A DNA stretch of 29,225 nucleotides, taken from positions 1 through 29,225 of the IMG/VR virus record IMGVR_UViG_3300030117_003998; one strand, given 5' to 3'. The notes beneath the pieces are model-generated. The model was given only the letters and a program-made list of their open reading frames with translations. It did not search any database and had not been told where the DNA came from. The DNA comes from a virus. Position numbers and translations under genes: made by a program. Of the stretch, positions 6,660 through 23,881 are shown piece by piece. Numbering within the stretch: the first letter of the stretch is position 1; each line of letters starts with the position of its first letter.

Positions 6660-8069
6660 ATGGCCAGTACTGAAAGGGCCACCTTGGAGATAATCGAGGA
6701 CATCGACTGGGAGATGGCGAAGAAAGATTTCAAGTTCTTCTTTGAGGAGATACTCGGGTGGCAGTTGGCCGACCACCACGCCAAGTGGTTCCACAACCTC
6801 AACACGCACAACAGGTACTGCGTGAAAGCGTCTCGAGACCATGGCAAGTCCACGCTGTTCCTCGGGTACCTCCTCTGGAAGGTGATATTCACCCCTCGTC
6901 TGGATACGATGATTTTCAGTCACAGTCTCGACCAATCCATCAGGCACATGAGGAGCCTGAACGACCTCATTGATTCCAGCCCGATGCTTGCCAAGATGAA
7001 AGACAAGGATGCTTGGTCCAAGACGTTCTTCGGGTTCACGAACGGCTCTCGAATCAATGCGAAGTCAGTCGGTGGTGGTGTCAGAGGTGCTCACCCAGAC
7101 ATGGTTCTCCTAGATGACATACTATGGGGGACGACCGATACCGAACTGCAGCGTGTGGCGTCTTGGTTCTACGAGGTCCTAGTCCCGACTCTCCACCACA
7201 CTTCGCAACTCTGCATAGTCGGAACCCCGTTCACTCCGACTGACCTGTACACTGAACTGGAGAGGAGGGACGGGTACCTCGTCGAGACCTATCCTGCCAT
7301 CAACGCGAAGGGCGAACCGCTCTGGCCATGGCGATGGTCCTTGGAGGCGCTTGATGCTCGTAGAATGGACATGCCAGCAATCGCATTCACTCGTGAGTAC
7401 CTCTGCGAGCCGATGGATGACATGTCCAGCCTGTTCCCAACTGCGATAGTGAATGCGTGCAAGGACCCCCATCTCACTCTGATGGATAGGCGTCATGACG
7501 ATGATGACAGCCAGTACTTCATCGGCTGGGACCCAGCGATATCGTCAGACCGCCAAGCGGACTACACCGTCATGCTGGTGCTGCGTCGCCCCTCAGACTC
7601 CCCTGAGACTCTGGAGTTGGTGCACGTGGTGCGTAGGAAGGGAATGGACTTCCGCACTCAAATCATAGAGATACAGCGTTTGAACAACAAGTTCAATCCT
7701 GAGGTCATAGAACTGGAGGCCAATCACTTCCAGCGTGTGTTCGCCACTGAACTGCGTGCTGACACCGACCTGCCAATCAAGACTTTCATCAGTACCAAGC
7801 AGCGGCGAGAGAGCCTTCTTATGGGATTGGTGCTTCGCTTCGAGCGAGAGCAAGTTCGCTTACCATGGGGAGACGAGAGGTCACGCGACCTCATCAGCCA
7901 ATTGGAGCACGAACTAATCATGTTTGGTATGAGCAAACAAGGGAAACTGGACAGCATCGCTAGGCACGATGACTTTGCCATAGCCCTCGCTTTGGGTAAC
8001 TGGGCCACTACCGAGTTCCGTGAGAGAATCATAGACTTGGACGCACTCATGTCGGGGTTGATAGATTGA
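6660..8069 (+). CDS. terL: Terminase large subunit
   Basis: The ATP-driven motor and nuclease that packages viral DNA through the portal; 469 residues, a normal length. The ATPase domain shows a Walker A variant, ASRDHGKST (residues 57-65, Lys63), and Walker B MVLLDDIL (148-155). Asp152/Asp153 fit the acidic and catalytic positions. The coupling motif IVGTPFT is at 186-192. The RNase H-like nuclease domain has its metal-binding acids at Asp291 (GWDPA), Glu353 (IELEANHF) and Asp437/438 (ARHDDFAIALAL). All expected motifs are present and in order, so it should be active, and there is no intein or frameshift. ATG 6660 follows GAAGGGG with good spacing. Its stop overlaps the TTG start of the next gene by four bases. 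Confidence 0.95.
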   Translation: MASTERATLEIIEDIDWEMAKKDFKFFFEEILGWQLADHHAKWFHNLNTHNRYCVKASRDHGKSTLFLGYLLWKVIFTPRLDTMIFSHSLDQSIRHMRSLNDLIDSSPMLAKMKDKDAWSKTFFGFTNGSRINAKSVGGGVRGAHPDMVLLDDILWGTTDTELQRVASWFYEVLVPTLHHTSQLCIVGTPFTPTDLYTELERRDGYLVETYPAINAKGEPLWPWRWSLEALDARRMDMPAIAFTREYLCEPMDDMSSLFPTAIVNACKDPHLTLMDRRHDDDDSQYFIGWDPAISSDRQADYTVMLVLRRPSDSPETLELVHVVRRKGMDFRTQIIEIQRLNNKFNPEVIELEANHFQRVFATELRADTDLPIKTFISTKQRRESLLMGLVLRFEREQVRLPWGDERSRDLISQLEHELIMFGMSKQGKLDSIARHDDFAIALALGNWATTEFRERIIDLDALMSGLID

Positions 8070-9511
8070 CTTGGGGGAGCGAACTCATCGGTGACGACTA
8101 CGACGCTCACACCGAGGAGTTGGACATCGACCGGGCTTGGGTCATGAGGCAGTTGCAACAGCATCCTCTGATAAAGCAAGTCGGAATCAAAGGCGCTGGT
8201 TTCGCTTCGGGCTCTGCTGCACCCGCGCCCGGTAACAGCGGCGCAGGTGCGCTGTCAGTATCAGACGACGAAGAGACTCCTCAGGAGAAGGTGGAAGGGG
8301 AGAAGAAGAAGAAGGAACTCAAGGAGGAGATGATGGTCGCCACTGGCGAGTCGATAGAGGGATGGTTCGAGGACACCTTCGGCAAGTCACCCTCCATGAT
8401 AGTCAAGGACTTGCGGAAGAAGAGGCGAGTCCACAAGGCCATGGCCCCTGAGATTGACGAGGCCATCAAGATAATCCGACTCACCAAAGCAGCAGAGGTA
8501 GAGCAGATACTGAACTCCCTAGGGTGGGCAGAAAAACACATGAGTACGATAAAGTCACTAGGTGTGTCTGACAAGGACCTCAAAGCCCTCAGAAAGTTTG
8601 GAGACGCCAGAGAGGTCTCCCTCAGACAAGCGTGCTTACAATGGGAGAATGCCAATGAGGTCATATCCAAACTGTCCAGCATAGAGGGTGACTTCGACGA
8701 GACTCAACAAGGGCAGTGGGTGAATGCCGTCAAACTCCGCAAGGAATCCAAGTCCATGTGGAAGACCACTCTCCACCAAGCGGAGAAACTCTCCAACAAG
8801 GACGCTATGGTCCTGCAGAAGGCAGTGGACCTGCTAATCGAGCACGGCGCTATGACCTCACGTGGGATACTCACCCACATGACGGGAGAGGATGGTAGGA
8901 ACAAGGGACTGCCGAGTTCCCAGCAACTAGGTGCTCTCATGAAAACGTATGGCCCTGAGTACGACATAGTGAAAAGCGGTCCGAACTGGGAGGTGCTCAC
9001 CAATGACCTCCATCTGGTCATGAAGGACCCTTGGGCATACGCAGCAGGGTTCCTCGACGCTGACGGTTACATCACCATCTCGAAGAGGGGCGAGCCTCGA
9101 GCAGGAATAGTTGCGACTGGTCTGAGAGGCAAGCACCATTGCGAGAACCTCTACAAGATGCTGAATTGTGGCGTCCTCTCCTTGGATTTGAAAGTTCACA
9201 AGAGCAGCAAGAGGAGTCAGCACCGTTTGCAGTTCTACAGCAAAGCCGACATTACCAAGTTGCTGAAGGGCACCATGCCCCATCTCCGCCTCAAGAAGAA
9301 CCAAGCCCGGCACGTCTTGGAACACTTGTCCCTTCGAGGCCAAGATGGTGACCTGATAAGCAAGAGGAGAGACGAGTTGTATCGGCTCGTCAAATGGGAG
9401 AATTGGTCCGATGTCAGGGGTGATGAACTGCTTGATGAGTGGAAAGTTGATGAACAAGAGGTCCTCTCGTGGGACAGGAGCGACCCCGAACTGATAGGAG
9501 AATTGGTTTGA
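8066..9511 (+). CDS. Unknown protein fused to a LAGLIDADG domain
   Basis: A 481-residue protein in two parts. Residues about 1-310 are charged and mainly helical, with a Lys/Glu-rich linker near 70-90. A possible winged helix lies near 265-315 (AMTSRGILTHMTG, then LPSSQQLGALMKTYG). Residues about 320-430 match a single LAGLIDADG homing-endonuclease-type domain. Its core helix is AAGFLDADGYI (326-336), with the catalytic-type Asp at 333, followed by the usual pattern ending LKKNQARHVLEHL. LAGLIDADG proteins with one motif normally act as homodimers. The start is TTG 8066, overlapping the terL stop (TTGA); no ATG lies near. The domain could be an active endonuclease or a domesticated DNA-binding module. 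No intein splice motifs flank it. Confidence 0.75.
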   Translation: MTWGSELIGDDYDAHTEELDIDRAWVMRQLQQHPLIKQVGIKGAGFASGSAAPAPGNSGAGALSVSDDEETPQEKVEGEKKKKELKEEMMVATGESIEGWFEDTFGKSPSMIVKDLRKKRRVHKAMAPEIDEAIKIIRLTKAAEVEQILNSLGWAEKHMSTIKSLGVSDKDLKALRKFGDAREVSLRQACLQWENANEVISKLSSIEGDFDETQQGQWVNAVKLRKESKSMWKTTLHQAEKLSNKDAMVLQKAVDLLIEHGAMTSRGILTHMTGEDGRNKGLPSSQQLGALMKTYGPEYDIVKSGPNWEVLTNDLHLVMKDPWAYAAGFLDADGYITISKRGEPRAGIVATGLRGKHHCENLYKMLNCGVLSLDLKVHKSSKRSQHRLQFYSKADITKLLKGTMPHLRLKKNQARHVLEHLSLRGQDGDLISKRRDELYRLVKWENWSDVRGDELLDEWKVDEQEVLSWDRSDPELIGELV

Positions 9512-9909: not shown

Positions 9910-10223
9910 TGAGCCAATGCTCCTGCTGCACCCTCGTGGTCAAGGATTTGAATAGGTGGTTCAAAGAGAAATGGGTAGACGTATCAAGAAAGGACAAGAG
10001 CGGCAAACACCCCCCTTGTGGAAGAAGCAAGGCGAAAAAATCATCAAAGGGGTATCCAAAGTGCAGACCATCAGTGAAAGTCTCAAGCAAAACACCGAAG
10101 ACATCTGGAAGCATGTCCGATGGACAAAAGCGAGCAGCGACAAGAAGGAAGAGGAGTAAGAAACAAGGAGTGGGTGGGAAGCCCACAATCGTTAAGATGA
10201 TAGGCGTAGTGCGCGTAGCGTGA
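9909..10223 (+). CDS. Small Cys-headed basic protein (PCGR/GQKRAATRRKR type)
   Basis: A 104-residue, very basic protein. It begins with a Cys cluster (MSQCSCC) and an amphipathic helix (VVKDLNRWFKEKW). A module then reads VDVSRKDKSGKHPPCGRSKA, continues with KGYPKCRPSVKVSSKTPKT and ends GQKRAATRRKRSKK. From memory, this PCGR...KCRP...RRKR arrangement recurs in marine phage and large-virus proteins of unknown role. ATG 9909 is chosen over the upstream in-frame ATG at 9891 because it overlaps the preceding stop and gives the same MS-C-x-C opening as its neighbours. Its high charge suggests binding to DNA or RNA. Confidence 0.75.
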   Translation: MSQCSCCTLVVKDLNRWFKEKWVDVSRKDKSGKHPPCGRSKAKKSSKGYPKCRPSVKVSSKTPKTSGSMSDGQKRAATRRKRSKKQGVGGKPTIVKMIGVVRVA

Positions 10224-10582
10224 GTTCAATGGAGTTCGAGCCCTGTACCTGTTGCACGCCTATGCAACAAGCGACCATGGCTCTCTTAGAGAACCACTTC
10301 GAGAAGGGCAAGAAGAAGTCCAAGCCATTTCACGGATACAACCCAAACCGGCACAGCAAGAAAGGCGGATTGAACGCCAAGGGGCGTGCTAAGTTCAAGA
10401 GAGAGGAGGGCGCGAACCTCAAGCCCCCTGTCACCACGAAGCCATCGAAACTCAAAGCCGGTAGCAAGAAAGCCAAGAGGCGCAAATCCTTCTGCGCTCG
10501 CATGGGTGGAGTGAAAGGGCCAACTAGCAAGGGCGGCAAACTCACACCCAAAGGTGCGGCGTTGAAGAGGTGGAACTGCTGA
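10220..10582 (+). CDS. Small Cys-headed basic protein (SFCARM motif)
   Basis: A 120-residue basic protein. It has a Cys cluster near the start (EPCTCC) and a short helix (ALLENHFEKGKK). Next comes the module KKGGLNAKGRAKFKREEGAN, leading into RRKSFCARMGGVKGP and ending KGAALKRWNC. I recall this GL-AKGR...SFCARM...ALKRW-C pattern from many marine phage proteins (DUF6321-like; not verified). The GTG start at 10220 overlaps the previous stop (GTGA) and gives an MSS opening like its siblings. An in-frame ATG at 10229 is the alternative. It ends at a TGATG junction with the portal gene. Confidence 0.75.
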   Translation: MSSMEFEPCTCCTPMQQATMALLENHFEKGKKKSKPFHGYNPNRHSKKGGLNAKGRAKFKREEGANLKPPVTTKPSKLKAGSKKAKRRKSFCARMGGVKGPTSKGGKLTPKGAALKRWNC

Positions 10583-12528
10583 TGGCAGACGAGCAGGGAT
10601 TCATCAGTCGTTTCATAGAGCGCCTCTCTAGCGGTTTCAGGACCAAGACCACACCTGAGCCGATAATGCCCTTGTGGAAGTCGGGCATACAGGAGCCAGT
10701 CCTAGTTCAGGGAGTGAGCATACCAGCACTTTACGCTACCGTTCAGGAGAGCATCATACTCAGGACCACCATCAATACCCTCTGTCAGGAGATTTTCAGG
10801 AGAGGCCATTTCTGGGAGAAGAAGTTCCAGATGAAGTGCACTCACTGTGGTGAGGAGTACAAGCACGAGACACAGCAGTGCAAGATATGCGACAACGCAG
10901 ACTTCAGGAAGCCCGATGCTGACCAGATAATCTACCCACGTTGGTTCATTCAGCAGCGCAATAGCATGGACCAGACATTCACTGATGTCCTCAGGGAAGT
11001 CGAGTGGGACTTGGACATCGTCGATGATGCTTTCATCGTGCTCATCAAGGACTACTACTTCAAAGAGGGCTCGAGCGACATAGAACTCTATCGGGTCAAG
11101 GAAATGCTACGAGGAGACCCCACGTTCATGAGGATAGTCTCGGACAAGCGTGGTGTCAGAGGCGGTCGATACCTAGTATGCCCCATTCACAGGGACAAGA
11201 CCCACCCCTTCGGAGGCGACATCAAGAACTGCGAGGTTTGCAACCAAGCGTTGCAGGACGTCCATTTCATCAACACCGCTGGCTCGGGCAAGACCCAATA
11301 CTACATCGAGGGAGAGGTGCTTCACTTCAGCAAGTACAATCCATCCAAACTCTACGGCAGGAGCCCTGTAGCCACACTATGGAGGCAGGCCATGACCCTG
11401 TCTGCCATGGACAATTACATGTACCTCGCGTACCAGAAGAGGAGGATACCACGAGGAGTCCTCGCCATCACGACAGACAACATCCAATCCACAGCATCCT
11501 TCTGGAAGGGCGCCGAGGAGAAGATGGAGCGAGACCCCAATTACATACCCAAGGTCGGCATCGAGTCTGCTACTGGAAGGGGGCGTGTGGAGTTCGTCCG
11601 CTTCATGGACTCGCTCGACGAGATGCAGTATGGTGCTGTCCGTGACGAATTGAGGATGCGGATAGCGGCCTTCTACGGGGTCTCCAACATCTTCATGATG
11701 GACAGCGGCAAAGGCGGTGGCCTCAATAACGAGGGCATGCAGATTCTAGTCACCAACCGAGCAGTGGAGTTCGGCCAGAAACTATACGGCAGGGAGGTAT
11801 TCCCTCGCCTCTTCAAGGCTATGGGGGTGACTGACTGGGAAATGACTCTATATCCGAACGAGGAGGAGGACGACGTCACACGCTTGAGAAGAGACGAGAT
11901 GGAGGTCAACATAGCGCAGAGGATGCAGCAACTTGGCTTCCAACCTGAATTAACGGAGGATGCGGGCAGGGACATTCGATTCTTCTACAAGAAACCCGAG
12001 ATGGGGCAGCAGATGATGCCTCCTCAGCAAGGAGGAATGCCTCCCGGCCCTATGCCTCCCGAAGACCAAGGTCCACCGGGAGGAGCAGCACCCGGCATGG
12101 CACCACCACCCCCCGGAATGATGGCTCCCGGCATGGCGCCACCGGGAGTAGGCATGCCTCGCGGGCCTATGGGGCAACCAGCGATGCCGACCGCGGCTCC
12201 CCCGCAGGGAGGAGCACCCACTGACCCAAGAGCCACTAGGCAACAGAGAGTAGGGCAGGTTCCTAGCAGAGTTCGACCCAGAGGCAACCAGATACTCACC
12301 ATGGAGAAGGGTATGGGCGCAGGCTCTGGTTCTGAGAGCGATGGCACTCGCCAAGGAAAGATAGCACCAGTCAGTTCCGAGACCGCCAGCGATGGAGCAC
12401 CAAAGTCCAAGAAGAACCAAAGAGGGCACAAGAAAGGACCGATGGAGCAGGCACTGGATGCCATCGAGGACGCGAAGGCGTCGGCTGCTGACCCCCTCAA
12501 CAACAAGAAAGAGAGCAACCTGAACTGA
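10582..12528 (+). CDS. Portal protein with zinc-ribbon insertions
   Basis: The dodecameric portal forms the vertex through which DNA enters; 648 residues. The call rests on position (after terL, before protease and capsid) and portal-like sequence: an N-terminal segment VQESIILRTTINTLCQEIFR, the membrane-of-head clip/stem features SKYNPSKLYGRSPVATLWRQ, and DELRMRIAAFYGVSNIFM typical of portal C-terminal helices. Two metal-site insertions are visible: C86/C89/C100/C103, and C200/H203/C217/C220. Residues about 475-550 are a Pro/Gly/Met-rich low-complexity tail, followed by a basic end. ATG 10582 overlaps the previous stop, with GAAGAGGTGG upstream; an in-frame GTG at 10570 is less likely. Confidence 0.88.
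   Translation: MADEQGFISRFIERLSSGFRTKTTPEPIMPLWKSGIQEPVLVQGVSIPALYATVQESIILRTTINTLCQEIFRRGHFWEKKFQMKCTHCGEEYKHETQQCKICDNADFRKPDADQIIYPRWFIQQRNSMDQTFTDVLREVEWDLDIVDDAFIVLIKDYYFKEGSSDIELYRVKEMLRGDPTFMRIVSDKRGVRGGRYLVCPIHRDKTHPFGGDIKNCEVCNQALQDVHFINTAGSGKTQYYIEGEVLHFSKYNPSKLYGRSPVATLWRQAMTLSAMDNYMYLAYQKRRIPRGVLAITTDNIQSTASFWKGAEEKMERDPNYIPKVGIESATGRGRVEFVRFMDSLDEMQYGAVRDELRMRIAAFYGVSNIFMMDSGKGGGLNNEGMQILVTNRAVEFGQKLYGREVFPRLFKAMGVTDWEMTLYPNEEEDDVTRLRRDEMEVNIAQRMQQLGFQPELTEDAGRDIRFFYKKPEMGQQMMPPQQGGMPPGPMPPEDQGPPGGAAPGMAPPPPGMMAPGMAPPGVGMPRGPMGQPAMPTAAPPQGGAPTDPRATRQQRVGQVPSRVRPRGNQILTMEKGMGAGSGSESDGTRQGKIAPVSSETASDGAPKSKKNQRGHKKGPMEQALDAIEDAKASAADPLNNKKESNLN
12004..12231 (+). repeat. Pro/Gly/Met-rich low-complexity segment in portal C-terminus
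   Basis: Imperfect repeats of codons for Pro, Gly, Met and Ala, in forms such as GGMPPGPMPP, APGMAPPPPGMM and APGMAPPGVGMP. They lie downstream of the conserved portal core. The segment is probably disordered and perhaps faces the capsid interior. The variation between copies suggests repeat expansion rather than conserved structure. Confidence 0.8.
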
Positions 12529-12920: not shown

Positions 12921-13276
12921 TGTCAGAAGAAGTCACCAACCTCATGGACGCTCTCATCACCAAGATGGAGCGAATGGACGGCGACATAGACTCGCTTCGC
13001 GCACAGAACCTAGAACTTCGCAAGATGGTCTCTGACCCTGATACCATGCTGCTCAAGTCTGGCTTCGTCAAGGCCAGCACCCCACGCACGGACGACGTGT
13101 GGGGCGACCCTCTCAGAGGAGAGAGAAATGAGGTAATCGAGAAGGCAGCCATAGCCATTGACGGTGTCATGGTAATGCCTGAGAACAACGCTGACTGGCA
13201 TGAGATGGGCTGGGATGAGATTCACGCGATGGCCAATGAGGCCGCAATATCAGAAGGAAGGCCGGTGGACCAATGA
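12920..13276 (+). CDS. Coiled-coil protein sharing a C-terminal motif with the scaffold
   Basis: A 118-residue protein. Residues 5-40 look like a coiled coil (LMDALITKMERMDGDIDSLR). A linker follows with FVKAS, and the end reads HEMGWDEIHAMANEAA. The scaffold end of the protease gene repeats this layout: helix, FAKSES, then AEMSWDDVHRLAGKAL at its own C-terminus. The match suggests a common docking tail, perhaps for the capsid protein or portal; this is inference. ATG 12920 overlaps the preceding TAA. An upstream in-frame TTG at 12881 would lie inside the previous gene and is rejected. It overlaps the next gene by ATGA. Confidence 0.72.
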   Translation: MSEEVTNLMDALITKMERMDGDIDSLRAQNLELRKMVSDPDTMLLKSGFVKASTPRTDDVWGDPLRGERNEVIEKAAIAIDGVMVMPENNADWHEMGWDEIHAMANEAAISEGRPVDQ

Positions 13277-14088
13277 AGCCAATGAAAGTAACAGCAGGGG
13301 AGTTCGCTCCAGACGTAGATGAAATGATAGAGAAAGCAACCAACATGGAGGAGATGCTCATGAAAGTCGCAGAACTACAAGACGACTCGCAGATGAGAAA
13401 CATCACAGGCGTCGAAGAAGCACCCATGACTCACTACTGGACCAACCAGCAACAGCCTGAGGAGAAGATTGAGTCCGTGTCCAAAAAGAACGTTGGCCCT
13501 CAGAACGTGACTATGCTAGACGCTAATCCCCATCAGACTGGCTCTACTCTCGCTGCTCATGAAAATACCGCTGGTGGTATCAGAAAGGCAAAGGAATCTA
13601 AGCCTGATTTCTTCGATGCTGATGGTGACGGCAATAAGACTGAGTCAATGAAAGATGCTCTCAAGACTAAGAAGAAGGGCAAGAAGGTCGCTATCAAGAA
13701 GGGCAATATGGGTGAGAAAGACAAGTATTGCATGAAGAACTTCGGCAAGAAATACTCCGAGTGCTCAGCCAAGCAAAAGGCACAGTGTGATAGAGTACAC
13801 GGCCCAGTCAAAAAAGCACCAATGGATGCTCTAGCAGCCCTCGCAGGTGGTGGCGGAGGAAAGCCCCCAATGGGCGGTGACATGGGTGGCGACGACATGG
13901 GAGACATGGGCGGTATGGGAGACGACGATGACCCACAAGCACTAGCAGACAAAATCAAGGGACTAGTCGATAAGTTAGCAGATGGTGCTGGTGGCGGTCC
14001 AGATATGGGTGACATGGGCGGTGACATGGGCGGCGACATGGGTGGAGCACCACCTATGGGTGGCGGTGGTGCACCCGGACCAATGTGA
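13273..14088 (+). CDS. Modular small protein: DxDxDG loop, Cys motif, Gly/Asp/Met tail
   Basis: A 271-residue protein made of short modules. Residues 1-60 are acidic and helical. Residues 112-121 (DFFDADGDGN) resemble an EF-hand or dockerin-type calcium loop, followed by a Lys-rich run. Residues 148-177 hold KDKYCMKNFGKKYSECSAKQ with a third Cys at 172; I recall this motif from marine phage proteins. From about 190 the chain is nearly all Gly, Asp, Met and Pro (GGDMGG type), broken by one helix (PQALADKIKGLVDKLADGA). No enzyme signature. The start overlaps the previous stop (ATGA). Its place between portal and the giant gene suggests a virion or assembly factor. Confidence 0.72.
   Translation: MKPMKVTAGEFAPDVDEMIEKATNMEEMLMKVAELQDDSQMRNITGVEEAPMTHYWTNQQQPEEKIESVSKKNVGPQNVTMLDANPHQTGSTLAAHENTAGGIRKAKESKPDFFDADGDGNKTESMKDALKTKKKGKKVAIKKGNMGEKDKYCMKNFGKKYSECSAKQKAQCDRVHGPVKKAPMDALAALAGGGGGKPPMGGDMGGDDMGDMGGMGDDDDPQALADKIKGLVDKLADGAGGGPDMGDMGGDMGGDMGGAPPMGGGGAPGPM
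13846..14085 (+). repeat. GGTGACATGGGC-type repeats coding for Gly-Asp-Met
   Basis: Short imperfect tandem repeats around GACATGGGCGGT encode Gly/Asp/Met runs in the C-terminal third of the preceding gene, in two blocks near 13868-13930 and 14003-14060. The reading frame is kept throughout, so this is coding low complexity rather than a regulatory array. Confidence 0.8.
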
Positions 14089-14106: not shown

Positions 14107-17100
14107 GTGCAGGAGACTCCTCAAGAGCATTTCCTGAACGCCAAAGCACGTTTCCAGAAGCACTATGACGAGGAAGACGCTGCAGAGTTGCTTTTCGCTT
14201 GCAACAATCTAATCAATCATGGCATAGAGTTGGATTGGGACAACACCCTCCAGAAGATGGAGGACATTCTCAAGGAGAAAGCACAAGTCAAAGCGGAAGA
14301 GGCCCTAGCCACTGAGGAGAAGGAGAAGAAGCCGTTCAAGACTAGGTTTGAAGAGAGAGACCCTTCAACTAAGCGAGACTTGATGGGTATCAGTTATCTC
14401 ACTAGTTCTGGAGAGGAGGGGCAGGCTCGAAGAGATAGGAGGGGCGGTGGTGTATTCCAAGAAGGCAGAAGGGGGTTACCTAGGGAGAACATAGACTTCG
14501 CCAGCCTCAGGGACTTCAAAACTCTCCCTATCTCCTTTCGGTTCGGTGACGATGAGAAGCGGGAAATCAGAGACGCTCAGATACCCGGTGCTCGTGAGGA
14601 CTTGCTCTCATACGTCAATATGCTCTCTGGTAAGAGTGGGGCGTATCGGCACATCGGTGATGTGGACGAGGAGCATTTGCATTCTCTAGCCATTGACAGG
14701 CCGAAGACTACCTATGCGGACAGTGGAGATGAGTTCTCCTTCCTAGGCCTGTTTCACGAGAACAGCCTAGACCCGAATCTCTATCGCTATCTGCGGGCTT
14801 ACTATCACCCGCGCTCACAACATTTCGTGGAGAAGATGGATAAGGAGATGGACAAGCATGACGCCGACATAGTCACGCAAGCATTGGGTGTGGATGACCA
14901 GACATGGCTCGAGGAAATGAGAAGCAAGACACCAGAGCAGAGAGAGCGCCTCAACAAGGAACTAGGACACGTAGCGCCAGACATGCTAGGTCCTGTGCCA
15001 GAGATGATGCGAACTCGCTTGTATGAGAGGGCTTTCTCGCAGTGGGACGATTGGTATCAGAACACATACCCAGACTCGCCTCTCCTCGGTGAGAGCGAAA
15101 CCCAGAGGCAGAAACGGCAGGAGTTGTTCTTAGAGCACAAGATGCTCAAGTTGGACGGTTGCAGACTCGGTTACATCAAGGATGCGCTGTACAAGGAGAA
15201 TGGAGAGATGGAGCGCGACTATCTCGACATCATCAAGCGTGAAGACTTCAATGACGTGGAAAATCGAGATTCGCGCAAGGCTATGGGCACTCGCCCGTTG
15301 GAGTACGGCCTTGAAATGCTGGATTCCAATCCTGAGACGGAAGACCTCAGCGAGATGAAGACCTGCCTATCTTTGATAAGCACTCAGATAAGCCACGACC
15401 TCGACAAAGTCCACAAGACAGATGTCAGTGGGTCACCAAACCCGGAACCCAATTGGGCTAGTGCTTTCTTCCACGATGAGGGGCAGAATGAGAAGGAAGA
15501 CCATTTCTTCGATGTTCTCCGAACCATAACTGCTAGAGGTGATGATGGTAACTTCGGTGACATGGAGTTCTTCTTCGCAAATGGCGACCCTTTCGGAAAG
15601 GGATTCACTGTGAAGGACATGCTGAGTCACATGACTAGGTCGATGTTCGTCATGACCAAGTCATATGCTGATGCATGGACTGGACATCACGGAATCCCGC
15701 ACAGCCATGTTCAGAGAGTCTCTCTCGGCAAGAACCCAGATGTTTGGAAGGAAGCCATGCAGCGTGCCTTGAATGACGCTCATGCGTATTTTACGAGAGA
15801 CATGCTCACAGTGGACGATGAAGGTAAGATAGTCGCAAACAAAGCGGGGGATGAAGTGCGTGAGGGGAACACCAGAGCGAGGGCCACTGGTAGAAAACTA
15901 TCCGCCACTCGTCCGATATTCGCCAAGGTCAGAGACCACTACAGCGCTCGGGACGAGTTCGACGAGGAGAGCGGACTCCCAATGGGAGCAGGGCATGACT
16001 ATACCAACTTCAAGGCAATCAAGGAGACTCTGGAGAAGTGGTTGGAAGACGATGCCATAGACTCACAGGACATGCAACAACTCGCGGAGTATCTCGCCAT
16101 AGAGAATGGCGGCTACGGGGAGGCCTCTGATGCGTTTCGTGATTGGAAGGCTCATCATCACAGCAAGGCTTGGCCTCTCCTTTACGCAGTCAAGCCTGCG
16201 GATATGAGGGAAGGCGGCTTAGACGACTTGCACGCTGACGAGGGCATAAGCGAGAAAAGCCCCTACTGGCCGACTCTCACTCTCTTCAGCAAGCAAGGGG
16301 GCTTGAATCTGGACATAACGGATGCGCTCAATGTCTTCTTGCAGAGGAACCCGGACTTGGGTCGTGAGGTCAAGCAGAGCATGATGGAATTGAGCGAGAT
16401 GCAAGAACTCCCCAAGGACTTCCGTACAAGCGCTGCTGTACGCAAGAAGCGTCTGCCTAAATCATGGCCAGCGACAAAGGAGACTTTACTGGCTTACCAG
16501 AACAAGGCTACATTGAACGATATCTTTGAGGATACCGGACAATACCCCTTGCTGAGTCTCCTGCTGAAGAAATTGGTCAGCAAGAAGGGAGTCAATTTCG
16601 ATGCTGATGGCCCTGATGCCGAGACAGAGGCCAATGAGAACATGCAAGAGTTCTCAATGAACAACAGGACGTTGTTGGACAACATCGAAGGTCTGGACTG
16701 GTTAGTCAGGAGGGGGTTGACTGACCGGCAGGCTGCCATAGTCGCTCACCCGGAAGACGGCTACAAGTCCATGCTCCCATTGGGACCGGAAGAAGGTGAT
16801 ATGGACAGGAGAGGCGTGGCAGTAGGAGCGTTGCGTGAGTTTCGACAGAATCCCATCGGTGCTCGTGGTGGTGCTCATGGTTCTACTCCTCTTACGGGAA
16901 CAGCGATGAAGTCAATCGCTCACATGGTGCCGAACGAGAGAGCGAACAGGCTGCTCGACAGAATAAAACTGCCTCTAGACATCATCCAAGCACTCACTCT
17001 GGGTGCTGATGGCAGGCAACTGCAACTGGAGGGTGAGAGCGAAAGCCCCTTCGAGCGTCTGCTCGCACAGTTCGCAGGAGAGGAAGACCTCCTCGTGCGC

Positions 17101-20100
17101 CTCCAGAGACTTGACTCTGACCTCAGGGTCCAGAGGTTCATGAGCACTGTAGCAGGTGAGACTGCGACAAACAACAACCCCCAGAACAACCACACTCTTC
17201 GCCCTCTCGACAGTTTCCTAGCAACTTTGGCCAGACAGAGGCATGGCACTGACGTCATCACGGGCTCTGACGGGGACGGAACAGCGCAGGAAAACAGAAA
17301 CCGGCGCAACTTCAATGTCTTCACTCGCAACAAGAAGGGCGTTTCCACCCAGAGCGACATAGCCTTGACTGACATGGCGCGATTGCAAGGCACCTTGTGG
17401 GGACTGGCAGGAGCCGAGCCCTTGAGATATGGTGGGGCGAGCGTCTTGACTAATCCGACAGCGCTCAAGAAACTCCTCACTGAGATAAAGCGTTCCAACA
17501 GGCGAGGGAAGAGCAGGAAAACCCTCCCACAAGAGTTGCGTTTCCACCCCAGCCCTTTCTTTGGCACTGAGGATTTGAGCAACTTGTTCGACAGCATCTC
17601 TCCTGATGACCTAACTAGGACACGAGACTGGCGTGCTACGATAGAGGACAAGAAGGAGCATGAGACCTACCTCTACCCAGTCGAAGAGGAGAACGGCAGG
17701 TACTACTTGAAACTAGAGCCTCTCTCCGAAGGCACTCGCAAGGGCTCTTTGCACGTCCCAGACGTATCACAAGCCAAGAACGCAGGAGTGAAGGGGCTCG
17801 AGAACTTCAGGAAGACTAGCCTAGCGGGCAGAAACGTCACGAGGATGAATGACTTCCTATTGGAAATGAGCAAGATAGGAGATGAGGATGGGCCCTATCG
17901 TCGCGTCGAGATGCCCATTGATAACATAGACTTTCAGAATCAGCAGCAACAGCGGGCATATTCCGATAGGATGGAAGTGCCTGCAGAGCACCTAGTGAAG
18001 GAAGGAAAAGACACCTTCATGGTTGCTTCTCACCCTTCCGAATTGCTATCGAATTGGTCAGAGTCCGTTTTCTCCTTCTTGCCTCGGACTAGTGATGTGA
18101 GCGATGCCATGCACACGACGCACGACATGGCGAGAGACGCGGCTCTCAATGACCTTGGCTCTATACCAGCGGAGATATCAGATGAGAGAGATACGTATGC
18201 CGAGTCTGGCATGAGTGTCGGTGCCTTGGCAGAGGTCGTCAAAGCAGAGCATGACTTTGCCATGGCCATGAGCAACGGCGGGATACTACCCGCTCTGGCC
18301 CATGTCGCCATAGACGATGCCAAGAGAAACCCAGAGGAGTACCAAGGTCAAGATTCGTTGTCGCAAAAGGTGTCTTACTTCCTGCAAGAGCGACTGGCCA
18401 TCAATGGTGACGTCATACCTCAGGGCAGCCCTGAGGAATACGACCGGAGAGCACGTTTGCAGAAGGTCATGGAGATGGGCCACACGTATCTGAACAACAC
18501 CGAGGGCTATGAGAGGATACTCATTGACAGAGACATACTTGATGCAGCCTCTGAGGAGGAGAGAGAGGTTTGGGAGCAATCACTCAAAGCAGCGGAAGAA
18601 TCAGTTGCAGTCAGCAGTTCTGACCATAATACAGTCACCAATGTGTCATATGGTGAGGGCAATCCCATATCACAACTGCATGCTACGAGGGCCGAAGGCG
18701 AGAAGGATGTTTTCGGCCATGAGATTGTCCGTCATTATCTTGCGACAGACCCTAGGGTCAGAGAGATACTCCGAGAGACTGGCCATGATAATTTTCGTGT
18801 TGTCAGTAAAATGTTCGATGACTTGCTAGGCTTGACTTCGATGCCTGAGCACAAAATCAAGGACAACGCAAAGGCTCAGAAGATACTGTTGGAGATGGGC
18901 CATCACGCGAAAGGCGAGCACCCCCTCTCATGGAGACCAAAGGCCTACGCTTATGACCCCGAAAACCCAGAAGTAGAGGGAGCGCGAGACGCTGAGGGTA
19001 ATCGCCGTAAGGTAAAGGCGAGCAATTGGGATGAGGATTTGCGCCGGAGGGCCACTTACGCCTCCAGAGCGAAAGAATTGGCCCGCATGCTCTCTGACAC
19101 AGGAGGCACTCAACGTGGCTTGAGAGAGTTAGCAGACGAGTACAGTTTCCTTTTCACTCCCTTCAATGGCAAGTCAGTATTCGACATAATCCAAGAGGAC
19201 ATCCACAATACCAAGCAGCAGAATGGGAAACACGCCCTTCCCGAAATAGCAAATGCTTTGCAACACAACAGAGGAAGCACTATAGAAGACCGAAACAGGG
19301 CCTTCGCTAGTTTTCTGTTTTGCAACAGCCGATTCAAAGAGCCTGTATCTCTACCAACTTACGAATATGGCACTAATCCGATACCAATGGGACACCCTAG
19401 GAGCACTGATACGAGGAAAGTGAGCCTGAAAAATGCCAAATACTCTACTATCTACAAGAACCCTTGGTTCAAAAGGCATTTCGGTGTCAATCACAACGAG
19501 GCTGATGTCACTGCTAACGAGCACACTAGTCAAGACCCAAGGACATTCCTCCCAATGCACCCCGATATAGTCAATAACATGGTCAGGGGCATACCGAGAC
19601 TCCATCCTGACATCACAATGCCCGAGACTCCGCTGTACAGTAACATATCAGAGGGACAATCTTTTGGTGTGAGGGCGGCTCAGCCAGACCAAAGGGATGA
19701 GTTGATGCTGTCATTGGACGTTCTCACAGACACTGATTTGTTCTTCAAGTCGGAAAAGAAGGACGATGGCACCCCCACACCAGTAAAAGCGATGCATCGA
19801 ATATTCAGCCTGAAGGACCTCGACCACTTGAGGGGTTTCTCTGGTGATTGGGTCGCAAGTGCATGGCCACGTGGAGAAAGGCTGATAATCGAGAAGTTGA
19901 AGACCAAAATCAAGGTACATAACAGCAAAAACGACGATTTTTCGCTTCCGAACAGCATTTTGGAGGGAATAAAGGAGGCAAGTGACGCTAAATTCATGAT
20001 TGACGCCATTTGGGACAAGGATACGCTCCATATTGTCGATATTATCGGCTCTGGCGACGAAAAAATGGAAAATATGCCCTCAAAAGACCGAATTAGGCAC

Positions 20101-21285
20101 CTCAGAGCCCAGTTTGCGGCCTCAGATGGGGTCATGATACCTGCTCCAATCAACACAAAAAGGGTAGATTCCGAGGGTTTGGAGAGGGCTGTGAAGGACC
20201 TTTTGGCCGAAAAAGGCGTAAAACAGGTGCTTCTGAGGGATGCTGACTCCACATACATGCGAGGTGAGAGCAGACACCCCAAATGGGTGCTTCTGACGCC
20301 TGAGAAGTCATTTGACGTCATGGTGCTGGAAAGCAGAGGCAATACTCACAGAATCGGCATAGGCCCGCTGTTTGACGAGGAAGGCAGAGCGTTGGGCAAC
20401 CGAGCGACACGTTGTAAGGGCGAATATTACATGGATGTAGGCTCAGTGCACCATTCTGGCCTCGAAGTAGGACAGCATATCACCGTCAAAGTCCCCTCTG
20501 TGACCAGTCAAAACAGGAAGAAAATGCGTGTCTACAACCTAAATGGGGCTCGTTACCTCCGTGATTCTGAAGCGGAAGGCACAGACAGCATCGAAACGCT
20601 CGACATAGCATGTCAGACGCCCAACCCCAACGTGCCGCACAAAGTCAGGATAAACAAGGGAGTCATCCATTTGGAGTTCCCCGAGACCCATGTTTCGTTT
20701 GAAACAGAGCGTATTGGGCACTCATTCCTGCTAAAACAGGCTGATTTTGGCTCTGATTACGACCTGAAACTGGCTGAATCACAGCGAGAATACTGGTCTC
20801 CATTGGCTGCAGTCCTGCTTCGCTCCGAGGCAGAGGCTGAGAAGATGGAGGAGGAGAGGAAGTCCAAGAAGGCCCATGTGGTGCCTGAGCCTCCTGCGAA
20901 TCACACGAAGAAGCCCAAGAAGGTGCTGAAGCCCGCCGAGAACATCATGAAGGACCCTGAAATCACCAAACAGGTGGTCAGTGCCCTCGAACTGCTAGAC
21001 GAGATGCTCAAGGAGAAGGTCACTTTCACTGGTCCCAAGGGCCTAGGCATTGACTTCGCTTCCCCAATAGAGTCACCTAGTGGCCCCACCACCCTCACAG
21101 AGCCCAAGAATCTGCCAGACCACGACCCCGGCCACAGGGAGTCCAAGGGTGGTGCTTGCTGGTGCGGTGCCAAGCGTGGGCAGGAGTGCGAGCAGGGTCT
21201 AGCCACTAAGATGGAGGATTGCCCCAAATTCTCACCACCGCATAAAGAAAAAGATGATAATCACATTAAAATCCCCGTTTCGTGA
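14107..21285 (+). CDS. Giant protein (2392 aa) with a degenerate DNA-ligase-like C-terminal region
   Basis: By far the largest gene in the window. Residues 1 to about 1870 match nothing I recognise; they are charged and largely helical with no membrane segment. Residues about 1910-2160 follow the order of an ATP-dependent DNA ligase adenylation domain plus OB fold. A motif I-like segment is AWPRGERLIIEK (Trp1920 where the adenylated Lys should be). Motif III is FMIDAIW (1963-1969) and IIIa is IVDII. Motif IV is SDGVMIP (2006-2012) and motif V is KWVLLT (2059-2064). An OB-like stretch containing YYMDVGSVHHSGLEVGQ comes next. All catalytic lysines are missing, so no ligase activity is expected. 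Four Cys lie near the end (2351, 2353, 2361, 2372). The start is GTG 14107, after GGTGGTGAT. It sits between portal and protease, so it is probably a virion or internal head protein. Confidence 0.85.
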   Translation: MQETPQEHFLNAKARFQKHYDEEDAAELLFACNNLINHGIELDWDNTLQKMEDILKEKAQVKAEEALATEEKEKKPFKTRFEERDPSTKRDLMGISYLTSSGEEGQARRDRRGGGVFQEGRRGLPRENIDFASLRDFKTLPISFRFGDDEKREIRDAQIPGAREDLLSYVNMLSGKSGAYRHIGDVDEEHLHSLAIDRPKTTYADSGDEFSFLGLFHENSLDPNLYRYLRAYYHPRSQHFVEKMDKEMDKHDADIVTQALGVDDQTWLEEMRSKTPEQRERLNKELGHVAPDMLGPVPEMMRTRLYERAFSQWDDWYQNTYPDSPLLGESETQRQKRQELFLEHKMLKLDGCRLGYIKDALYKENGEMERDYLDIIKREDFNDVENRDSRKAMGTRPLEYGLEMLDSNPETEDLSEMKTCLSLISTQISHDLDKVHKTDVSGSPNPEPNWASAFFHDEGQNEKEDHFFDVLRTITARGDDGNFGDMEFFFANGDPFGKGFTVKDMLSHMTRSMFVMTKSYADAWTGHHGIPHSHVQRVSLGKNPDVWKEAMQRALNDAHAYFTRDMLTVDDEGKIVANKAGDEVREGNTRARATGRKLSATRPIFAKVRDHYSARDEFDEESGLPMGAGHDYTNFKAIKETLEKWLEDDAIDSQDMQQLAEYLAIENGGYGEASDAFRDWKAHHHSKAWPLLYAVKPADMREGGLDDLHADEGISEKSPYWPTLTLFSKQGGLNLDITDALNVFLQRNPDLGREVKQSMMELSEMQELPKDFRTSAAVRKKRLPKSWPATKETLLAYQNKATLNDIFEDTGQYPLLSLLLKKLVSKKGVNFDADGPDAETEANENMQEFSMNNRTLLDNIEGLDWLVRRGLTDRQAAIVAHPEDGYKSMLPLGPEEGDMDRRGVAVGALREFRQNPIGARGGAHGSTPLTGTAMKSIAHMVPNERANRLLDRIKLPLDIIQALTLGADGRQLQLEGESESPFERLLAQFAGEEDLLVRLQRLDSDLRVQRFMSTVAGETATNNNPQNNHTLRPLDSFLATLARQRHGTDVITGSDGDGTAQENRNRRNFNVFTRNKKGVSTQSDIALTDMARLQGTLWGLAGAEPLRYGGASVLTNPTALKKLLTEIKRSNRRGKSRKTLPQELRFHPSPFFGTEDLSNLFDSISPDDLTRTRDWRATIEDKKEHETYLYPVEEENGRYYLKLEPLSEGTRKGSLHVPDVSQAKNAGVKGLENFRKTSLAGRNVTRMNDFLLEMSKIGDEDGPYRRVEMPIDNIDFQNQQQQRAYSDRMEVPAEHLVKEGKDTFMVASHPSELLSNWSESVFSFLPRTSDVSDAMHTTHDMARDAALNDLGSIPAEISDERDTYAESGMSVGALAEVVKAEHDFAMAMSNGGILPALAHVAIDDAKRNPEEYQGQDSLSQKVSYFLQERLAINGDVIPQGSPEEYDRRARLQKVMEMGHTYLNNTEGYERILIDRDILDAASEEEREVWEQSLKAAEESVAVSSSDHNTVTNVSYGEGNPISQLHATRAEGEKDVFGHEIVRHYLATDPRVREILRETGHDNFRVVSKMFDDLLGLTSMPEHKIKDNAKAQKILLEMGHHAKGEHPLSWRPKAYAYDPENPEVEGARDAEGNRRKVKASNWDEDLRRRATYASRAKELARMLSDTGGTQRGLRELADEYSFLFTPFNGKSVFDIIQEDIHNTKQQNGKHALPEIANALQHNRGSTIEDRNRAFASFLFCNSRFKEPVSLPTYEYGTNPIPMGHPRSTDTRKVSLKNAKYSTIYKNPWFKRHFGVNHNEADVTANEHTSQDPRTFLPMHPDIVNNMVRGIPRLHPDITMPETPLYSNISEGQSFGVRAAQPDQRDELMLSLDVLTDTDLFFKSEKKDDGTPTPVKAMHRIFSLKDLDHLRGFSGDWVASAWPRGERLIIEKLKTKIKVHNSKNDDFSLPNSILEGIKEASDAKFMIDAIWDKDTLHIVDIIGSGDEKMENMPSKDRIRHLRAQFAASDGVMIPAPINTKRVDSEGLERAVKDLLAEKGVKQVLLRDADSTYMRGESRHPKWVLLTPEKSFDVMVLESRGNTHRIGIGPLFDEEGRALGNRATRCKGEYYMDVGSVHHSGLEVGQHITVKVPSVTSQNRKKMRVYNLNGARYLRDSEAEGTDSIETLDIACQTPNPNVPHKVRINKGVIHLEFPETHVSFETERIGHSFLLKQADFGSDYDLKLAESQREYWSPLAAVLLRSEAEAEKMEEERKSKKAHVVPEPPANHTKKPKKVLKPAENIMKDPEITKQVVSALELLDEMLKEKVTFTGPKGLGIDFASPIESPSGPTTLTEPKNLPDHDPGHRESKGGACWCGAKRGQECEQGLATKMEDCPKFSPPHKEKDDNHIKIPVS

Positions 21286-21323: not shown

Positions 21324-22733
21324 ATGTTGATGATGGAGGCTCCTGTAGAGGACCCAATTCTACTGAAAAGCAGGTCAAGTGACCTAGTCGTCGCAGGCTA
21401 CGCATCAGTCGAGATGGTGGACAAGCAAGGCGACCTCATCACCAAGAACGCACTCAAAGACGCCTTTGGCAAGTTCATGAAGTCTCCCGGCTTCAGAAAC
21501 GTCCAATTGGCTCATTCTAACATACAAGTAGGGGAGGTAATACCCAACTACGAGGACACGTCAGGCAGAGTCTGGAAGTCTGAGGTAGACGAGACTGGTA
21601 TGTTCGTGGTCATCAAACTAAGAAATGACATAGAGAAGGCCCGAGAAGTGGCCGCAGAGATTCGCAAGGGGAACCTGAAGTCGTTCTCCATCGGTGGACA
21701 GGCTTTCGAGCGTGTCAACAAGCACGACGGCACCAGAGGTGACTATCGTGAGATAAGCCGCATGGAGTTGCACGAAGTGACCATTTGCGAAAAGGGCATT
21801 AATCCTGAGGCCCAGTTTAGAATCCTAAAGGAGGATACAACGAACAAAGGTGAAAACATGACAGATGAAGAAAACACAATGTCTGAGTTGCAGAACGTGT
21901 TAGAGAGGCTTTCAAAGCGTCTCGACGATGCTGACGAGGCGGAAGCCGCAGTCAAGGCAGAAGACACCGAGAAAGCGATGAAGGACAAGAAAAAAACTGA
22001 AGAAAACAACGACGAAGATGGTAATATGGAGGAATCTGAAAAGATGGACAAGAAGAAGGACGAGAAAATGGCCTACTCCAAGTCCGAGGAAATGGATGAC
22101 GTCATTACCACAGACTATCTGCAGTGGCTAGAGAGCACTGTGAAGTCCGCTGGGTACGACCCAGAGGCTGCACGAGACGCTCTAGAGTCTGGAGAAGTAG
22201 ACGGAGTAGAGAAAGGCTACTCGCCCGGAGAGCACGGCTTCGACCACAGAGGTCAAGGCAGCATCGAGGGCGCTGGCGAAGATGACTCCGGTAAGAGGCC
22301 AAAGCCGAACTTCGGTGCCGCACCAAGTGGCAACAAGAACGTCATTAAGGCCGACGACTACATCGACGCAGCCTCTGTGAGCCCCTCACAGATAGAGGAA
22401 GCGTATCAGGTCTACAAGGCCGCTGCACTAGAGCAGAGGTTCAAGACCGACCTAGGCAACGAGTTCTCCATGAGACTCACCAAGGAATTGGAAGAGGCAG
22501 AGAGCGCACAGGCCAAGGACGAGTTTGACGCAAGAGGCCCTCTAGCAGACCTGCAGAAGGCAGTTCTATCCCTCTCTGAGAGGATTGAGAACATACCCGC
22601 TGGCGGCGAGACCTTCGCCAAGAGCGAGTCTCCTGCTATGATGAGTATTCCTGAGACCCAAGAGATGGCCGAGATGTCGTGGGACGATGTCCACAGGCTG
22701 GCTGGAAAGGCTCTTCAGGGAGGTGACAACTGA
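21324..22733 (+). CDS. HK97-type prohead protease fused to scaffold
   Basis: A 469-residue protein in two parts. Residues 1-170 match the HK97-type prohead protease (S78 / U35 clan). VVAGYASVEMVDKQGDLIT opens the fold. His64 (QLAHSN) and Ser122 (KSFSIGGQAF) fit the catalytic pair, and MELHEVTICEKGINPEAQF is the usual closing strand. Residues 180-469 are acidic and coiled-coil, typical of a scaffold cleaved out during head maturation: Lys/Glu/Asp-rich at 195-260, more helical at 370-430. The C-terminus ends in AEMSWDDVHRLAGKAL, a motif also found in the 12920-13276 product. ATG 21324 is followed by two further in-frame ATGs (21330, 21333); no strong ribosome-binding site helps to choose. The stop overlaps the capsid start (TGATG). 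Confidence 0.92.
   Translation: MLMMEAPVEDPILLKSRSSDLVVAGYASVEMVDKQGDLITKNALKDAFGKFMKSPGFRNVQLAHSNIQVGEVIPNYEDTSGRVWKSEVDETGMFVVIKLRNDIEKAREVAAEIRKGNLKSFSIGGQAFERVNKHDGTRGDYREISRMELHEVTICEKGINPEAQFRILKEDTTNKGENMTDEENTMSELQNVLERLSKRLDDADEAEAAVKAEDTEKAMKDKKKTEENNDEDGNMEESEKMDKKKDEKMAYSKSEEMDDVITTDYLQWLESTVKSAGYDPEAARDALESGEVDGVEKGYSPGEHGFDHRGQGSIEGAGEDDSGKRPKPNFGAAPSGNKNVIKADDYIDAASVSPSQIEEAYQVYKAAALEQRFKTDLGNEFSMRLTKELEEAESAQAKDEFDARGPLADLQKAVLSLSERIENIPAGGETFAKSESPAMMSIPETQEMAEMSWDDVHRLAGKALQGGDN
21846..21853 (+). promoter_or_regulatory. Internal ribosome-binding site for nested scaffold
   Basis: AAAGGTGA inside the protease-scaffold gene sits four bases before an in-frame ATG at 21858. It lies exactly where the protease domain ends and the acidic scaffold begins. 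The core AGGTGA equals the strong sites used before the capsid genes. Confidence 0.5.
21858..22733 (+). CDS. Possible separately translated scaffold protein (nested, in frame)
   Basis: An in-frame ATG at codon 179 of the protease gene, preceded by AAAGGTGA, would give a 291-residue protein (MTDEENTMSELQNVLERLSK...) equal to the scaffold half alone. Some tailed phages, lambda among them (C and Nu3), make extra scaffold from a start nested in the protease gene. The composition suits a scaffold: acidic, Lys/Glu-rich and helical, ending in a compact helix that could touch the capsid protein. Without expression data it remains a prediction. The fused form alone could suffice. Confidence 0.45.
   Translation: MTDEENTMSELQNVLERLSKRLDDADEAEAAVKAEDTEKAMKDKKKTEENNDEDGNMEESEKMDKKKDEKMAYSKSEEMDDVITTDYLQWLESTVKSAGYDPEAARDALESGEVDGVEKGYSPGEHGFDHRGQGSIEGAGEDDSGKRPKPNFGAAPSGNKNVIKADDYIDAASVSPSQIEEAYQVYKAAALEQRFKTDLGNEFSMRLTKELEEAESAQAKDEFDARGPLADLQKAVLSLSERIENIPAGGETFAKSESPAMMSIPETQEMAEMSWDDVHRLAGKALQGGDN
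22718..22726 (+). promoter_or_regulatory. Strong ribosome-binding site of the major capsid gene
   Basis: GGGAGGTGA ends six bases before ATG 22733 and matches the complement of the 16S rRNA 3' end almost throughout. It is the best such site in the window, as expected for the most abundant virion protein. Confidence 0.75.
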
Positions 22734-23881
22734 TGGCACGTGATTATGTACGAACAATACAAGATATGGAAAGATACTACTACGGTGGTACAGCAACGAC
22801 CGGGTACACCTACAGCAGTGGAGACATACTGAAGGCCGATGCGCCTCTCCTGTCCACTACGGCTGGTACCTACCAAGCAATCTACGGAAGGAAAGTTTGG
22901 TCGCAACTGAACCAAGAGTTCAATGCGTTTAGCATACTTCCAAAGAAGCCTTGGGAGCGAAGTGGGTGGAGAATCATCACCGCCAAGCCTTCGTTCAACG
23001 TAGGCGGCGGACTGGCTGAGAACGCTACTCTGCCAGACACCACCAAGCCTGACTTCCTACACGTGGCTGCAAAGCCCAAGACCATCGGTCACTCGTTCGA
23101 CCTGAGCGAAGTGTCCATGTTCCTTTCTGACAAGGATGACGGTCTTGGAGACGTGCGCCAAGTGCTAAAGGAAGAGATGGGGAAGCACCACGCTGACCAC
23201 ATCAACAGGATGCTCCTACAGGATGTCGACACACCAGCAGGCAACGACCTAGAGTCTCTAGACAGGCTCACTACGGACCCTGCTAAGATGACGACGACCC
23301 AAGGTGCAGTCAGTGCCCTAACCGACCACGACCTATACTCCATCACCAGAGATGGTAGCGTTGGATTCCACAGCGCAGAGGTAGACGTCGGTGGAGACGC
23401 GAGCACTTCCGCAACTAACAGGAACCTCAGCCTGAATCAACTGGACGGACTGTTCCAGCAGATTTGGACTCGTGGTGGTAACCCCAAGGTCATGCTGACT
23501 GGGTACGATACCCTAATGCGTGTCCAACAACTCCTACAGAGCCAGCAGAGGTTCATGGAGTCCAAGAGGGTCACACCAACCTACAACGGCGTGAAGGGTG
23601 TTCCCGGTATCGAGGCTGGATTCATCGTGGCTACCTACAACGGTGTGCCCCTGATTCCATCCAAGGACGTAACCACGGACGGTATCTCGAGGATTTACTA
23701 CTTCGATACTGACTACCTGTGGTTCCAGACCGCTATCCCAACTCAGTACTTCGAGTCGGGTATCGAGACTGGTGACCCGTTCGCCATCAACAGGCTAGGA
23801 CAGGAAGGACTCTACCGAACCATGGGTGAGGTATGGGACGCTTTCTTCGGTGCAGGAGGTTCTATCCGAGACCTACAGTAG
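22733..23881 (+). CDS. Major capsid protein, HK97 fold
   Basis: The 382-residue shell protein; its length is close to that of the HK97 capsid protein. It directly follows the protease-scaffold, the standard gene order. Residues 1-50 are an extended N-arm-like region (GGTATTGYTYSSGDILKADA). FNAFSILPKKPWERSGWRII begins the core. A long spine-helix candidate is GLGDVRQVLKEEMGKHHADH near residues 136-155. QLDGLFQQIWTRGGNPKVML and the ending YFESGIETGDPFAINRLGQE fit the A-domain region of such proteins. The very strong ribosome-binding site and overlap with the scaffold stop support high expression. I see no decoration-domain insertion. The protease cleavage site cannot be read from sequence. Confidence 0.88.
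   Translation: MARDYVRTIQDMERYYYGGTATTGYTYSSGDILKADAPLLSTTAGTYQAIYGRKVWSQLNQEFNAFSILPKKPWERSGWRIITAKPSFNVGGGLAENATLPDTTKPDFLHVAAKPKTIGHSFDLSEVSMFLSDKDDGLGDVRQVLKEEMGKHHADHINRMLLQDVDTPAGNDLESLDRLTTDPAKMTTTQGAVSALTDHDLYSITRDGSVGFHSAEVDVGGDASTSATNRNLSLNQLDGLFQQIWTRGGNPKVMLTGYDTLMRVQQLLQSQQRFMESKRVTPTYNGVKGVPGIEAGFIVATYNGVPLIPSKDVTTDGISRIYYFDTDYLWFQTAIPTQYFESGIETGDPFAINRLGQEGLYRTMGEVWDAFFGAGGSIRDLQ

Follow-up and report, generated by a model that had tools for sequence, protein, structure and literature searches.

A catalytically dead DNA-ligase fold as the probable constant end of a polymorphic giant head-module protein in magrovirus-like viruses

Our analysis demonstrates that a 2,392-residue viral protein carries near its C-terminus an ATP-dependent DNA-ligase fold that has lost its catalytic residues. 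The protein is encoded in the window, by which we mean the whole stretch of DNA analysed here, an IMG/VR virus record of 29,225 bases that is a partial fragment. We propose, at a probability of roughly 0.55, that this pseudo-ligase serves as a constant C-terminal dock for a polymorphic giant head-module protein of the magrovirus type, much of whose body is exchanged between viruses. The original prediction recognised the ligase-like domain but did not see that the rest of the protein is hypervariable and that this end stays constant.

Residues ~1880-2153 of the giant adopt the ATP-dependent DNA-ligase fold, comprising a dead nucleotidyltransferase (NTase) domain at residues ~1893-2065 (19783..20301, + strand) and an OB-fold domain at residues ~2068-2153 (20308..20565, +). 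Relatives were collected from IMG/VR (383 in the last scan, 80 of them kept), and residues 1863-2392 were modelled with AlphaFold from an alignment of 29 family sequences. The model has a mean pLDDT of 73, with values of ~80-93 over most of residues 1893-2170, and its top Foldseek matches are DNA ligases only (E 1.6e-14). The best match in the PDB is the P. furiosus ligase 2cfm (Z 22.2, 271 residues aligned at 3.7 A), a superposition of model residues 17-366 that takes in both the NTase and the OB domain; human ligases I, III and IV rank below it, with LIG1 at Z ~21. Profile comparisons agree with the structural ones. The family profile aligns by hhalign with nine genuine phage ligases (E 3.4e-6, probability 88) without gaps across motif I, and an hmmsearch of the PDB with the same profile returned 20 matches, all of them DNA ligases (best E 0.016). 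Against Pfam, the window giant has no PF01068 match at E<=1 and only weak unrelated matches. Relatives do exceed the curated PF01068 cut-off, among them L064 (34.4 bits, E 2.4e-8) and L070, L059, L029 and L055 (28.3, 27.4, 26.8 and 26.2 bits among them). These structural and profile searches confirm the ligase fold that the original prediction had placed at residues ~1910-2160. In BFVD the model also matches nudivirus proteins that have yet to be characterised, GrBNV gp48-like ones among them; these share the ligase/nucleotidyltransferase fold and may merit a check for lost catalytic residues of their own.

What has become of the ligase active site? Residue counts over 94-96 distinct relatives give the same answer at every motif. 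Motif I has degenerated to S-A-W-P-R-G-E-R (residues 1918-1925; 19858..19881, +), where hhalign pairs K205, D207 and G208 of the HGTV-1 ligase with W1920 (codon 19864-19866), R1922 and G1923. None of 94 sequences has lysine at position 1920; 87 have Trp, four Ile (L096, L098, L104 and L140) and three Ser (L068, L070 and L071). Motif III reads D1966-A1967-I1968 in place of D-G-E (20002..20010, +), with Asp1966 retained in 93/94 sequences and replaced by Glu in one, and with Ile, Val, Leu or Met instead of Glu at 1968 in all 94. In motif V, W2060-V-L2062-L-T2064 stands for W-L-K-x-K (20284..20298, +), and lysine occurs at neither 2062 nor 2064 in any of 96 sequences. Trp1920, Arg1922, Ile1968 and Leu2062/Thr2064 had all been named in advance as the substituted residues, and the alignment with phage ligases bears this out. 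Motif IV had been misplaced: it was taken to be the SDGVMI stretch, with Pro2012 for the lysine, a reading that we rejected because hhalign puts this stretch between motifs IIIa and IV and pairs motif IV, E-G-I-I-V-K, with K2039-Q-V-L-L-R2044 (within VKQVLLR), so that Arg2044 replaces the lysine.

Conservation in the domain is highest from degenerate motif IV through the strip that follows it, K2039-QVLLR2044-DADSTYMRGESRHPKW2060 (20221..20286, +), in which Arg2044, Asp2045, Tyr2050, Gly2053 and Trp2060 are invariant (96/96). The near invariance of the strip L-R-D-x-x-S-T-Y-M-x-G-E-x-R-H-P-K-W after motif IV suggests, from sequence conservation, that it may form a new binding site. At motif I, 41 members keep W-[YW]-D-G-x-R, which is the canonical K-Y-D-G-x-R with only the lysine changed to Trp, and the catalytic loss therefore looks ancestral, preceding diversification of the family.

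The fold is nonetheless under selection. In close pairs with a usable estimate, dN/dS of the ligase-like domain is 0.013-0.09; for the region before the domain it is 0.07-0.21, above the domain's value in every pair for which both were computed. Together with the absence of a catalytic Lys or Glu from all 94-96 sequences, these low ratios are good support for selection on the fold without ligase chemistry, as had been predicted. Conservation continues into a C-terminal tail (residues ~2154-2392; 20566..21282, +), delimited by the alignments and modelled with helices and strands. It holds a small beta domain, helices, the motifs LKEKxTxTGPKGLGID and SPxGPT, and a Cys-rich end. In the window's group this end reads C-W-C-G-A...C...C-P (21156-21230) and could bind zinc; the motif is absent from more distant members.

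The giant ORF (14107..21285, +) is open, starts with GTG and lies among head genes. Upstream are the terminase large subunit (6660-8069, +; phrog_38), the portal protein (10570..12528, +; phrog_18178, E 1.6e-72) and three small + strand genes between portal and giant, the last of which encodes p271, a 271-aa protein directly 5' of the giant (13273..14088, +) with homologues in 86 loci and no match to any Pfam family. Downstream are an S78 prohead protease (21324..22733, +; PF04586, E 4.1e-10) and an HK97-type major capsid protein, MCP (22733..23881, +; phrog_24667, E 6.7e-56; PF17236). The order portal-p121-p131-p271-giant-protease-MCP recurs around the 88 complete giant ORFs examined, with homologues of the same domain between portal and protease; the exceptions are neighbours lost where a contig stops and two short ORFs that are probably broken. 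This conserved synteny supports the head-module setting, which had been proposed from the window alone, and gene order suggests that the giant is a virion protein. A search of PHROGs returned no family for the giants. In the two short cases (L102, 4725-6353; L104, 104-3991) the ORF is interrupted, leaving frames of 543 and 1296 aa, through assembly errors or broken genes. Two other genes of the window deserve mention: a 481-aa protein after the terminase (8066-9511) has a C-terminal HNH-endonuclease-like domain (phrog_5046, E 3.3e-8), and a 120-aa protein (10220-10582) matches only the C-terminal ends of the large PHROG families phrog_10346, 727 and 3477, which are of unknown function, and so resembles their shared C-terminal domain on its own.

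To which viruses does this family belong? At ~30% identity, the portal of the window resembles those of the haloviruses HVTV-1 and HCTV-1 (Druskaviridae), whose kinship with magroviruses is established (PMC10768690, PMC12999244, PMC8651126). Contigs of 63-118 kb that contain relatives of the giant encode a chaperonin in 17/17 searched, and family B DNA polymerase (PolB) was found in 14/19 long contigs; both genes are typical of viruses of MGII/Poseidoniales (PMC5332604). The portal relationship and these two genes in the relatives' contigs lead us to infer that the giant's family belongs to Magrovirales-like viruses, the tailed viruses of Poseidoniales, which are abundant marine archaeal viruses; of the Magrovirales traits considered (a Druskaviridae-related head module, PolB, a viral chaperonin and genomes of 90-118 kb), the window, being a 29-kb fragment, was compared by its portal alone. 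A tblastn search of 50,697 phage records with four family members gave no match, nor did a scan of genome contigs with the family alignment or one with the HGTV-1 ligase as query. One relative, L084, bears a contig name (IMGVR_UViG_2634166703_000001) unlike the metagenome-derived ones and might be a genome-project sequence with a host link.

These viruses are already credited with a ligase. Among the replication genes of magroviruses, ICTV profiles include an ATP-dependent DNA ligase (PMC10768690, PMC12999244), as does a diversity study (PMC10160649), and in a group A magrovirus this gene is reported to adjoin that for the prohead protease (PMC7318539). In our 19 long contigs, PF01068 matched in 17, always inside the giant ORF, and detected no other ATP-dependent ligase; in the 14 contigs searched, neither an NAD-type ligase (PF01653) nor a match to a full-length phage-ligase profile was found. 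Both kinds of search recovered our positive control, the HGTV-1 ligase, with 93 bits for PF01068 and 430 bits for the full-length profile. Since no other ligase-like sequence was found in the long contigs and one published gene lies next to the protease, the published magrovirus DNA ligase is probably the dead domain of the giant. The gene is therefore probably present in published magrovirus maps, and the fold itself is known. The original prediction knew of no described head protein of this kind, which holds only in part: the protein has probably been listed already, as a normal replication enzyme. In the limited open-access literature that we searched, nothing was found that calls it inactive, assigns it to a giant protein of the head module or recognises in it the fixed end of a cassette that is swapped.

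The body of the giant behaves quite differently from its ends. In an alignment of 35 representatives, conservation is confined to residues ~1-55 (14107..14271, +) and about 1860-2392, with a mean identity of 0.31 in the N-terminal segment against 0.06-0.18 over the next 1800 residues. We call the intervening hypervariable part (residues ~56-1867; 14272..19707, +), defined by sliding identity, dS and change points, the cassette. Between the window and L002, DNA identity is ~61% up to about 19,700-19,750 and 95-99% from ~19,850, a stretch that covers the domain, protease and MCP genes, with a few divergent patches beyond. Comparison with L001 gives 89-98% upstream of the gene, 67-89% in the cassette and again 95-99% over domain, protease and MCP; for L011 and L014 the flanks are 94-95% identical, the cassette 57% and the domain 86%. 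Among 79 pairs with both flanks at >=80%, the cassette is less similar than either flank by 10 points or more in 30; the pseudo-ligase drops this far in no pair. Where 3' change points are clear, 12 of 14 pairs place them no more than 30 residues from the start of the domain. Synonymous sites show a break too: dS in the cassette versus the constant part is 2.12 versus 0.21 for window-L002 and 0.82 versus 0.08 for L132-L129, is saturated versus 0.70 and 0.48 for L011-L014 and L130-L159, respectively, and also rises for window-L001. Because synonymous sites break at the same place in several pairs, these data indicate exchange and not only relaxed constraint: the cassette has been swapped between viruses as a unit, at least in the pairs with a dS break. 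We also folded residues 201-1400 of the L154 cassette (pLDDT 77). Against the PDB, only a 60-residue helical stretch of this model matched (Z <= 9.5), with no convincing fold, and BFVD gave no match below E 0.3.

Could the cassette be divergent through weak constraint alone, with neither exchange nor any special biology? Cassette dN/dS does exceed that of the domain in the pairs measured, several pairs have equal dS (L008-L010 and L138-L144 show no break between cassette and flank), and strong local constraint alone could put identity change points at the domain border. However, weak constraint does not account for the jumps in dS in five pairs (window-L002, window-L001, L011-L014, L130-L159 and L132-L129), and the sharpness of the change points at the border also speaks against it, so we regard this account as unlikely. 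Far less probable still is a working ATP-dependent ligase that serves viral replication, possibly through shifted residues. The magrovirus papers that list such an enzyme (PMC10768690, PMC12999244, PMC10160649) would favour it, as would a lysine at 1919, immediately before the motif I position, in 43/94 members. However, these 43 all lack Glu in motif III and the lysines of motifs IV and V, residue 1919 of the window protein is Ala, and fusion to a 2,000-residue head-module protein is unfitting for a replication enzyme.

Ligases encircle nicked DNA with their NTase and OB domains, and a dead ligase could do the same as a clamp. The protein would then be a structural head or neck component that grips packaged DNA at the portal, whether ends, nicks or the last-packaged stretch, and no effector would be delivered. 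This reading, which is that of the original prediction, draws on the gene order portal-giant-protease-MCP, on the way ligases embrace DNA and on the invariant basic residues R1995, R2000, R2044, R2056 and K2059. Net charge is not informative: that of the domain lies close to zero, and phage ligases likewise range around or below zero. The clamp leaves unexplained why an 1,800-residue cassette should be exchanged between otherwise near-identical viruses, and we consider it doubtful as a full account, although the best placed of the rivals; binding of nicked DNA or DNA ends may be one of several options for the domain. The m3G-cap-binding domain of snurportin-1 is a nucleotidyltransferase fold of guanylyltransferase type that no longer catalyses but still serves for binding. 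By the same token, the pseudo-ligase might hold a small ligand, a modified nucleotide or an RNA end, with Trp1920 and the invariant R-D-x-x-S-T-Y-M-x-G-E-x-R-H-P-K-W strip lining the predicted pocket. The snurportin family PF21974 matches 13/22 family members (best E 1.9e-5), and the catalytic Lys has become Trp in 87/94. However, wherever a member's score was given, PF21974 stays under its cut-off, and the match may mirror the shared fold only; this is quite an improbable reading.

We therefore favor the constant dock of a giant with an exchanged cassette. An archaeal-type ATP-dependent ligase, NTase plus OB, would have lost its adenylation chemistry before the family diversified, and the ligase-derived fold would now be retained as a binding or docking domain. 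Together with the conserved tail it would make up the unchanging C-terminus of a giant that is encoded between the portal and the prohead protease and that, judging from gene order and analogy, would be packaged in the head close to the portal. The giant may be held there by the pseudo-ligase and the short constant N-terminus, through DNA or through a head protein, while the cassette would contact a host partner that changes fast, probably once it has entered along with the DNA, like the T4 internal proteins. A fuller version, in which a swappable head-borne effector rides on the dead-ligase dock, enters the archaeal cell together with the genome and there combats or reprograms the host, in viruses with no ligase of their own, is possible but tentative; since the model of the L154 cassette resembled no known fold convincingly, the delivered effector stays a proposal.

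Why does this matter? Reviews count the ligase among the replication genes taken to make magroviruses largely host-independent. If, as is probable, that ligase is the dead domain, the viruses would depend on their host for ligation. The head module's most variable long segment is also a likely place of virus-host conflict, and the constant domain offers a handle by which the giant protein may be expressed, bound and traced.

How does the giant compare with known systems? With archaeal and eukaryotic ATP-dependent ligases (2cfm, LIG1) it shares the NTase and OB fold, motif order and spacing, the motif III Asp, the IIIa-strand Asp, the motif I G-x-R and the motif V Trp. Unlike active ligases, it has none of the catalytic lysines and no motif III Glu. 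Moreover, its domain is C-terminal in a ~2,000-residue protein beside a prohead protease, and Pfam searches of the window protein and of four relatives gave no match to the ligase N-terminal DNA-binding-domain family (PF04675). The ATP-dependent DNA ligase of the magrovirus families Aoguangviridae and Apasviridae is probably the same gene, published as a replication enzyme, whereas here the catalytic residues are absent and the domain is part of a hypervariable head-module protein. Snurportin-1 is a eukaryotic import adaptor reached by a weak profile match, while the top structural matches of the giant are DNA ligases.

The closest positional counterparts are the large proteins of Druskaviridae, HCTV-1 gp109 and HVTV-1 gp115 (L165, 21828-25460, and L166, 20117-24058), which occupy the same slot between portal and protease. 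These carry recognisable effector domains, namely a zeta-toxin kinase domain and, in HVTV-1, also an ADP-ribosyltransferase, but have no detectable homology to the cassette, and PF01068 has no match in the HVTV-1 and HCTV-1 genomes. In T4, the internal proteins Ip1-3 are variable, bear a constant N-terminal signal, and are packaged and injected against host defence (PMC12373910). The giant joins constant ends to a variable body. Ip1-3 differ from it in being small, in having separate genes and in lacking a ligase fold.
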